The notes under the pieces were generated by a model. That model ran no database searches and was not told where the DNA came from. It saw only the letters and a list, made by a program, of their open reading frames with translations. A stretch of DNA of 64,000 nucleotides from Planktomarina sp. (GTDB lineage Bacteria; Pseudomonadota; Alphaproteobacteria; Rhodobacterales; Rhodobacteraceae), in assembly GCA_020630595.1 (NCBI GenBank), contig JAHDBC010000009.1, positions 1-64,000 of the forward strand, written 5' to 3'. Below, piece by piece: positions 2,058-45,373 of this stretch. The first letter of the stretch is position 1. The number at the start of each line of letters is the position of its first letter. Both the position numbers and the translations under genes were made by a program.

Positions 2058-2079
2058 GTAGGGTGGGTGAAACCCACCG
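2058..2079. repeat. Dispersed palindromic repeat, copy 2
   Basis: The 20-mer AGGGTGGGTGAAACCCACCG with two further bases (GT) in front, identical to copy 3 over 22 bp. It sits between the convergent stops of the LysR gene (2046) and nusG (2084). The 7-bp-arm hairpin is the same on both strands, so it could stop or insulate convergent transcripts. It may also mark a rearrangement point. Confidence 0.8.
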
Positions 2080-43162: not shown

Positions 43163-45373
43163 TCAGTAAAAGCTTTGTGGATCGATATCGATCGACAGAC
43201 GCAGGGTGGATGGCAATTTGAACTGGCGGACCCATTCGGCCAGCGCGGCCTGGATTGGTGCGGTCTTGTTCGCCTTGACCAGCAACCTTACGCGGTGACG
43301 GCCCCGGATGCGGGCAATCGGGGCGGGGGCCGGACCGAAAACCTGTGCGCCGATGCGCGTCAGCGGCACCACGTTTTGTGCCATCGCCTGGCCCACGTCA
43401 AACACCTCTTGAACATCTGGCGATGACAGAACGATCCCCGCCATTCTGCCATAAGGGGGCACACCTGCAGCCTTGCGTTCGGCGGCTTCGGCGGTCCAGA
43501 ATCCATCCTCATCCCCTGCAAGGATCGCCTTGATCACCGGATGATCCGGCTGATGGGTTTGCAGATACGCAACGCCCGGTTTTTCTGCGCGCCCTGCCCG
43601 TCCGGCCACTTGGCGCATCAATTGAAACGTCCGTTCCGCCGCACGCAAATCCCCGCCCTGCAACCCCAGATCCGCATCAATGACGCCAACAAGGGTCAGC
43701 AACGGAAAATTGTGCCCTTTGGCGACCAATTGGGTTCCGATGATGATATCCGCCTCTCCGGCGGCAAGCGCTTCGATCTGGGCCTTCAACGCACGGGCCG
43801 ACCCGTACATGTCAGACGACAACACAGCGACACGGGCATCCGGGAACAGGGCTGTCACTTCTTCGCCCAACCGTTCCACGCCGGGGCCGACGGCAGCCAA
43901 CCGATCTTCTGCTTCACAGGAGGGGCAAACGGTTGGGACGGGTTTCGTTTCCCCGCACTGGTGGCACATCAGCCGCTTTAGAAACCGGTGTTCCACCATC
44001 CGCGCGTCGCAGTGATCACACCCCACTTGCTGACCACAGGCCCGGCACAGCGTCACCGGGGCAAAGCCGCGCCGATTGATGAACAAAAGCGATTGTTCCC
44101 CAGCCGCCAGCCGCTGTTGCACCAGTGCCTGTAGGGTGGGTGAAACCCACCGGTCGCCGGGCAGGGTTTCCGCCCGCATGTCAATCGCGCGCATATCCGG
44201 CATTTGCGACGCACCAAACCGGGATGTCAGTTCCAGCCGTTGATACTTGCCCGCTTCGACATTTGACCAGCTTTCCAAGCTGGGCGTGGCAGAGGCCAGA
44301 ATGACCTGTGCCCCCACAAGCGACGCCCGCAGCACGGCCATATCGCGGGCATTGTACAGCACACCATCTTCCTGCTTGTAGGACGTATCATGTTCTTCGT
44401 CGACGACGATCAGGCCCAAATCCTGATAGGGCAGAAACAGCGCTGACCGTGCGCCCACCACCAGCTGCGCGTTGCCCTGCCCCACCATTTTCCACGTTCG
44501 GCGGCGTTCGGTCATGGTCACGCCACTGTGCCATTCGGCAGGGCGCGCGCCAAAACGCGCCTCTACCCGGGTCAGAAATTCTGCCGTCAGCGCAATTTCC
44601 GGCAACAACACTAGCGCCTGTCGCCCCGCACCAAGACAGGCGGCAACGGCTTCCAGATATACCTCTGTCTTGCCCGATCCGGTCACACCTTTCAAAAGCG
44701 TGGTCTGATACCGCCGCCGGGCCGCCGCCTGGGTCAAGGCCCCAACGGCAGTCGCTTGATCAGCTGACAGCGTTTTGCCGGGCAACGCCGGATCAAGATG
44801 GGGGAACGGAAGATCCCGTGGACTGGCCTGTTCCAAAACAGCCCCCGCCTTGACCAAACCCTTGACCACGGACGGGGTGACATCTGCGGCCTCTGCCAGT
44901 TCTTTTAGCGTGAAGGCCAGACCGCCGTATTCTTCAAGCGCGGCAATCACCCTTGCGCGCGCATCGGTCATGCGGGCGGGCCGCGCATCGCCCAAACGGT
45001 AAACATATCGCATAGACGGTGGATCGCCCAACCCGGGGGCCCGCGTGGCCAGCCGCAGCATCGCAGGCAAGGGCGTTAGGGTGTAGTCCGCTGCCCGTGC
45101 AATGAATTCGCGCATCGAAACATCCATGGGCGCCACATCCAAAACCCGGATCACAGACCGAATCTTGTTGTAGTCGAAATCCCCGGCCCCCTTGCCCCAG
45201 ACCACGCCCAGCACTTTGCGCGGGCCCAGCGGCACTTCGACGAAAGCCCCCATAAAACAACCGCCCTCAGGCGCTTTGTAATCCAGCGTTCGATCCAAGG
45301 GCTGTGTGGTCAGAACAGCGACCAAGTCACCTTCGTCGAAAAAAAGGGGGGGGCTTTCAGCAGCGGCAGGCAT
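43163..45373 (-). CDS. priA: Primosomal replication protein PriA
   Basis: 736 residues. Helicase motifs [13 protein letters not shown] (Walker A) and DEEHDTSYK, the zinc-binding region with paired Cys ([31 protein letters not shown]) and [12 protein letters not shown] are present. It restarts stalled replication forks by loading DnaB. Residues 408-414 (RWVSPTL), a segment with a family-like R-W-[LV]-S-P motif, are encoded by a copy of the dispersed palindromic repeat. Divergent from the aldolase gene. Confidence 0.95.
44131..44152. repeat. Dispersed palindromic repeat, copy 3, within priA
   Basis: The same 20-mer AGGGTGGGTGAAACCCACCG preceded by GT, identical over 22 bp to copy 2. It lies in the priA coding sequence. 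On the minus strand the codons begin exactly at 44152 and read R-W-V-S-P-T-L with a rare-looking CTA Leu codon, so the repeat is in frame and does not interrupt the gene. Confidence 0.8.

Follow-up and report, generated by a model that had tools for sequence, protein, structure and literature searches.

A GTAG REP palindrome lies in frame at a recurrent site of priA in Rhodobacteraceae and may have arrived there by overwriting partly similar DNA

In the window, a 64,000-nucleotide stretch of Planktomarina sp. DNA, one copy of a GTAG REP palindrome lies in frame within priA, and the same REP form occupies the same priA codons on separate branches of the Rhodobacterales, with borders that match the ends of the REP. 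The segment belongs to a family that is dispersed in the source genome (G000) and accompanied there by a RAYT gene with flanking copies, and the priA site of this genome shows no change in length relative to the rest of the genus. The explanation that we consider probable is that resident REPs repeatedly overwrite a partly similar target in priA, in the manner of gene conversion, and that the copies deposited there subsequently decay.

The 22-mer in priA, GTAGGGTGGGTGAAACCCACCG, is composed of GTAG followed by GGTGGGT-GAA-ACCCACC, with the tag 5' of the palindrome as in GTAG REPs, and as a single strand it is predicted to form the hairpin ....(((((((...))))))). at -7.2 kcal/mol (z -4.0). On the minus strand it reads CGG TGG GTT TCA CCC ACC CTA C within an ORF that is assigned to PriA by NCBIfam profile search (NF004070, 1093 bits with a cut-off of 921; TIGR00595, 605 bits). 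Two statements of the original prediction are confirmed, in that the repeat is read in frame within this ORF as R-W-V-S-P-T-L and is identical across 22 nt to the copy (Table 1) between a LysR-like ORF (1117-2046, +) and nusG (2084-2653, -; both gene names assigned by eye). The accompanying suggestion that R-W-[LV]-S-P is normal for PriA holds in part: R-W is found in these relatives, but 4nl4, the one solved PriA shown aligned, matches in the S-P.L part only, with R-W falling at a two-residue gap and no gap downstream of S-P. At the left end of the window, positions 1-60 have a REP and adjoining sequence in common with G000:C14:1-57, and from this shared sequence the window contig and C14 probably abut or overlap at the REP.

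Table 1. Features of the window that bear on the REP copy in priA.
Feature	Position	Strand	Basis
GTAG REP (GTAG tag, 7-bp stem, GAA loop), in frame in priA	44131..44152	+	sequence match, fold
priA, replication restart helicase PriA (primosomal protein N'), 736 aa	43163..45373	-	NCBIfam NF004070, TIGR00595
Intergenic REP copy between LysR-like gene and nusG, possible donor type	2058..2079	+	sequence match
REP copy cut by contig end	1..20	+	same stretch complete at C14 (37-57), tag GCAG

The source genome has a GTAG REP family to which the priA segment truly belongs. Across its 2.74 Mb (63 contigs) there are 40 copies at no more than two mismatches, 23 of them exact, and the same genome search with the reversed pattern as a control returned none; with this whole-genome count, the early concern that the repeat might exist in only three copies falls away. 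The copies are dispersed and mostly extragenic. To map them relative to genes, 42 copies were roughly screened on ORF and codon score and 13 ORFs were inspected by eye; the only ones recognised as intragenic were those in priA and dnaE2. Some copies form inverted pairs resembling BIMEs or REPINs, for example C44:22622-/22652+, C4:37715-/37752+ and C34:625+/655-. A RAYT gene on contig C26 (NF047646, REP_Tyr_transpos, 181.8 bits with a cut-off of 80) is itself flanked by inverted REPs at 7441- and 8022+. The Y1_Tnp profile (PF01797) missed this gene, which both a sister-species homologue and NF047646 detected; its TAG stop codon (L072:1969-1971) comes from the GTAG of a flanking REP. Within a genus sample of 20 genomes, the REP is present in four and a RAYT homologue in exactly those four; NF047646 confirmed a RAYT in G000, G007 and G067.

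These features, namely the common GTAG tag, the short palindrome, dispersed copies, inverted pairs and a RAYT flanked by copies, are shared with the GTAG REPs and the RAYT-associated REPs and BIMEs described elsewhere (PMC2817692, PMC3733652, both in excerpt). Our subject, by contrast, is not extragenic but one copy, with a GAA loop, within priA. For Haemophilus parasuis, a REP that shares the tag and stem but differs in its loop is listed together with its RAYT (PMC2817692, in excerpt). Two contig ends in genus members fall near the site: a priA contig ends at the REP site at G007:C75:4867, though that site is not an exact REP, and another starts about ten codons after it at G005:C61:2, so that the site is out of view.

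The REP form of priA extends well beyond this genus. A scan of GTDB contigs for 17 specified site bases, together with the downstream G-E-Q codons at a fixed distance, recovered 21 loci with the REP at the same priA codons. They are rhodobacteral where named (Loktanella, Sulfitobacter, Roseovarius, Jannaschia, Roseicyclus and Rhodobacteraceae/Paracoccaceae, with one named Alphaproteobacteria only); the loci were picked by site bases and spacing, and conservation within them is not used here as evidence. Further REP copies, counted with a free loop and at most one mismatch, are present in 19 of the 20 searchable scan genomes, and a RAYT scores above cut-off in 18 of the 20, G216 having only a broken one and G222 none. 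A sample of 198 genomes of the family, searched with the GAA loop and at most one mismatch, has a REP copy in eight genomes and a copy outside priA in seven (G067 excluded); the proportions 19/20 and 7/198 are not strictly comparable, the first coming from the pattern with a free loop and the second from the stricter GAA-loop pattern. Four of four REP-free genomes that were retested with the looser pattern stayed at zero.

An association between the priA form and the rest of the REP family is also seen in genomes sampled regardless of the site. The site pattern matched in 96 of the 198 family genomes, three of which have the REP form (G000 and G067 exactly, G030 at 19/21); 80 of the other 95 site matches, plus G019, were fetched for the alignment rows. 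Counted blind to the site, the REP form is found in two of six REP-bearing genomes (present in G000 and G030, absent from G007, G008, G009 and G166) versus one of 107 others (G067), with a Fisher p of 0.007; REP-bearing G053, G068, G073 and G136 lie outside the count of six, their priA site not being seen where the pattern did not match. Because four of the six REP-bearing genomes are without the form, its gain in priA is not inevitable. The RAYT is a less specific companion, with a match in six of 13 chosen genomes that are without this REP (five above cut-off), and G053 has the REP with no RAYT match. In G067 and G227 the priA copy is the only one at no more than one mismatch, and the best-scoring RAYTs of both genomes are flanked by another REP type; loss of the donors is a possible explanation. 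These two genomes present the situation that was expected to count against a mobile palindrome, the same priA sequence in the absence of intergenic copies (at one mismatch or fewer).

The last base of the REP in priA follows the genome's own variant in G000, G222, G228 and G234 and, as judged by the RAYT flanks, in G232 and G233; it does not in G231, G030 and G221. At the Roseovarius loci L175, L178 and L181 (G232, G231 and G233, respectively), the RAYT-flanking REPs have a loop one base longer (GAAAA or GATAA) than that of the priA copy, which could not gain this longer loop without a frameshift. In four other genomes, the RAYT genes L194, L197, L199 and L200 each carry an internal palindrome of the type GTAGGGCGGG...CCCGCC, near 1733-1760, at about the same coding place.

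To assess recurrence, a quick tree was made from 118 PriA proteins with the site columns left out and with SH-aLRT support; the set is without L049 (cut at the site) and L081 (a duplicate of L128). The REP label, given to the 23 rows that match at 19 or more of 21 nt, requires 10 changes on this tree, at least six of them forced by starred branches, as compared with a mean of 21.3 for shuffled labels. REP rows score 19-21 of 21, the 95 REP-free rows score 9-18 with a mean of 14.1, and a REP-free sister row may lie well below its neighbor (21 for L087 versus 15 for L151). Across 11 lineage representatives, identity is full, except at one third base, from base 3 of codon -1 to base 1 of codon 6, which is the 20-nt REP core, and is at background on both flanks. 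For eight of these representatives the source was the GTDB scan, in which 17 of the 20 core bases had been specified beforehand, and the weight of this comparison rests on the bases left open: base 3 of codon -1 is G in 22 of 23 REP rows versus 17 of 95 others, and base 1 of codon 6 is C in 23 of 23 versus 51 of 95. The alignment of priA across Rhodobacterales that had been called for thus places the REP form in several separate lineages, with identity confined to the REP core. It also revises the idea that the DNA replaced was synonymous. Replacement need not be so, as the REP encodes V and T at positions where REP-free rows mostly have I (77/95) and often S (31/95).

In the source genome, the length of PriA at the site is unaltered relative to the genus. 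Both flanking distances, I-D-M-R to W on one side and W to Q-S/A-L-L-F on the other, are equal in 18 of 18 rows of the genus that a protein search recovered with both sides in view, the REP row included. No gap falls between codons -9 and +24 in any of the 118 rows, a result that is informative only upstream and for the genus rows, since most rows were collected with a fixed W-to-G-E-Q distance and a priA lengthened downstream would be missed. There is no other REP-like stretch, at four or fewer mismatches, in the 118 priA rows or in a 60-row set, and the register is therefore specific. An in-frame insertion would be recognised by extra codons relative to element-free homologues, and the priA site has none in the genus rows; gene conversion would be recognised by identity confined to the repeat with length preserved, and this is the pattern found, within the selection limits of the rows.

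Because the REP occupies one priA register, with borders at the REP ends, no change in length and, as a rule, resident donors, we favor homology-directed overwriting, which could proceed as follows. First, partly similar priA sequence would pair with REP DNA in single-stranded form or with a repair tract for which a dispersed REP had served as template; the RAYT could be the supplier of the single strand. Second, the paired REP would overwrite about its own length of priA, much as gene conversion or oligonucleotide recombination does. Such a change in coding would be tolerated, as the GAA-loop REP happens to spell R-W-V-S-P-T-L and would satisfy the conserved S-P.L motif of PriA. Such overwriting would have taken place separately in several rhodobacteral lineages that have this REP type, and perhaps also in dnaE2 of the source genome. 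Finally, the priA copy would decay through ordinary synonymous drift. No pair of strains with before and after states was found among the genomes compared, and we infer the homology-directed replacement step, like the role of the RAYT, from the comparisons given above. By our own estimate, a genome has other targets that resemble the REP as closely as priA does, and similarity alone therefore does not explain why priA is hit repeatedly; the site may recur because the GAA-loop REP encodes a peptide that PriA accepts.

Among the alternatives, the one that survives best, although we regard it as unlikely, is selection at the nucleotide level, in which a REP-type hairpin would be useful in priA, for mRNA control or as a RAYT binding site, and point mutations would converge on it in RAYT-bearing genomes. 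Recurrence on separate branches and the association with REP-bearing genomes are compatible with such convergence, as are a second copy in a replication/repair gene, dnaE2, and the bias of intragenic REPs to genes of this kind (PMC3733652, in excerpt). The genus of G220, sampled irrespective of the REP form and with the site matched in 55 of 56 genomes, offers a closer view of turnover. The exact form is found in only 13 of the 55, TTA stands in place of CTA in 6, and the rest grade down through intermediate forms, which selection for a hairpin could also produce. For counts of codon changes we used 56 rows, consisting of the 55 sampled genomes and L086 from the GTDB scan. In one 28-row clade the site changes somewhat less than matched codons do (31 versus 43.6 changes; fraction at or below the observed value, 0.04), in keeping with selection, but in the whole 56-row set its changes are as frequent as those of matched conserved codons (70 versus 69.5, for the four columns that meet the filter). 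Across this genus, the nucleotide sequence of the site is thus not strongly maintained. The full set of five REP codons is found in 14 of the 56 rows, against 1.7 expected under independence, although part of this excess is shared descent. Several other observations speak against convergence by point mutation: CTA, which is rare among the Leu codons of window ORFs (2.2%), belongs to the copy, as do bases that lie beyond the stem; REP rows of the 118-row set score 19-21 and all others at most 18; and RAYTs occur without this priA form in 6 of 13 chosen genomes. We also considered that the TTA variant might track a GTAAGG tag, as GTAAGG-tagged palindromes are present in G281 (400 kb sampled), but a single C-to-T transition suffices and this idea was rejected.

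Less probable still is one old acquisition in an ancestor, with the REP kept in some lineages and lost elsewhere. The clustering of the REP label, with 10 changes against 21.3 when shuffled, and the many decay-like intermediates within the genus of G220 would be natural outcomes of such a history. Twenty identical nucleotides would hardly survive neutrally, however, between Jannaschia, Sulfitobacter, Roseovarius and the source genus, and the starred branches force at least six changes. Moreover, because conserved degenerate codons change a mean of 17.5 times on the tree of the G220 genus alone, identity between distant lineages should be recent, and the gains hence separate. It is implausible that the identity dates from a distant ancestor, and gains of recent date are favoured; old acquisition is disfavoured at the scale of the family and is probably partly true within single genera.

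Transfer of priA segments between species, carrying the REP along, would yield a patchy distribution like the one seen, but it is very unlikely given that identity stops at the REP borders and the flanks of the 11 representatives are at background. Slightly less credible again is an origin of the REP family in priA, in which a coding palindrome was picked up by a RAYT and then spread. The lone priA copies in G067 and G227 would agree with it, but the 95 REP-free rows score only 9-18 of 21, the Haemophilus parasuis REP combines the same tag and stem with a different loop (PMC2817692, in excerpt), and the borders at the site are those of the REP, including the GTAG tag, which is not a feature of priA. 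Of the two options originally put forward, replacement of DNA by a mobile palindrome at a site that fits its sequence is therefore supported, and derivation of the repeats from priA is not. Chance is highly improbable, as predicted, for although conserved R-W-[IV]-S-P gives a match of ~14/21 nt by default before any codon drift, exact 20-mers are expected at ~7e-6 per genome from base composition alone, window codon usage gives these codons a probability of 2.4e-5 with the peptide fixed, and the open positions match in several lineages too, a recurrence that itself argues against coincidence. Quasi-palindrome correction within priA was rejected, as the GTAG tag, which lies outside the stem, was copied too.

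Overwriting by resident REPs has a precedent in the literature as an idea: Higgins, McLaren and Newbury reportedly raised the hypothesis in 1988 that REPs spread by gene conversion. That proposal likewise has a REP copied between sites without transposition, and the priA site adds evidence for replacement from coding sequence. A site that recurs in an essential gene at constant length offers a natural before-and-after record that can separate replacement from insertion, and with it the old gene-conversion idea becomes testable by ordinary genome comparisons. If our reading is true, it suggests that palindromes can spread through replacement of existing DNA as well as through insertion. More broadly, and as a tentative proposition that we hold at roughly even strength, REP/RAYT elements may spread by writing over partly similar DNA, through homology-directed replacement by single-stranded REP, and not by insertion only; the S-P.L codons of priA would then be a recurrent landing site in Rhodobacteraceae, and essential genes could acquire intragenic REPs with their reading frame intact. 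On the enzymatic side, one RAYT, TnpA-REP of E. coli, is able in vitro to cut single-stranded REP and to recombine it, and the mechanisms by which REPs disseminate are called poorly understood (PMC8266576, in excerpt).

REPs within genes are already known; a recurrent, apparently length-neutral replacement in one essential gene is something that we did not find described. No report of REPs in priA appears in the titles and abstract beginnings among the literature matches listed (REP/REPIN/RAYT and intragenic palindromes), and priA is not named in the main text of PMC3733652. That work describes REPs in frame within DNA-repair genes, with dnaE2 among the targets and GTAG supplying TAG stops, and presents intragenic REPs as ORFs interrupted by inserts that encode extra residues (PMC3733652, in excerpt). 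The intragenic GTAG/CGTC REPs of replication and repair genes reported there are read in frame as here, dnaE2 included, and a TAG stop from the tag occurs here in the RAYT. Unlike those inserts, the copy in priA leaves the number of residues unchanged, and it is found repeatedly in a single register. Rickettsia palindromic elements are also palindromes in frame within genes, but they are insertions (PMC3733652, in excerpt), whereas none is seen at the priA site.

The second exact in-frame REP of the source genome, in dnaE2, is read as R-W-V-S-P-T-L-Q at G000:C36:45454-45474 (L011:1501-1521). The gene was identified from the N-terminal 470-aa part, which scores 499 bits against NF004225, error-prone DNA polymerase, for which the cut-off of 939 applies to the whole protein. 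Alignment with four plasmid-borne homologues (49-68% identical) shows no gap at the copy, the homologue L297 has a four-residue gap six residues upstream of it, and a Roseobacter homologue has ACCCACCCTA at the place of the REP. Insertion of REPs may also occur: in G030, a REP pair (L282:1538-1589) lies in frame in a 590-aa ORF, acyl-CoA carboxylase-like by eye, and is possibly a true in-frame insertion.
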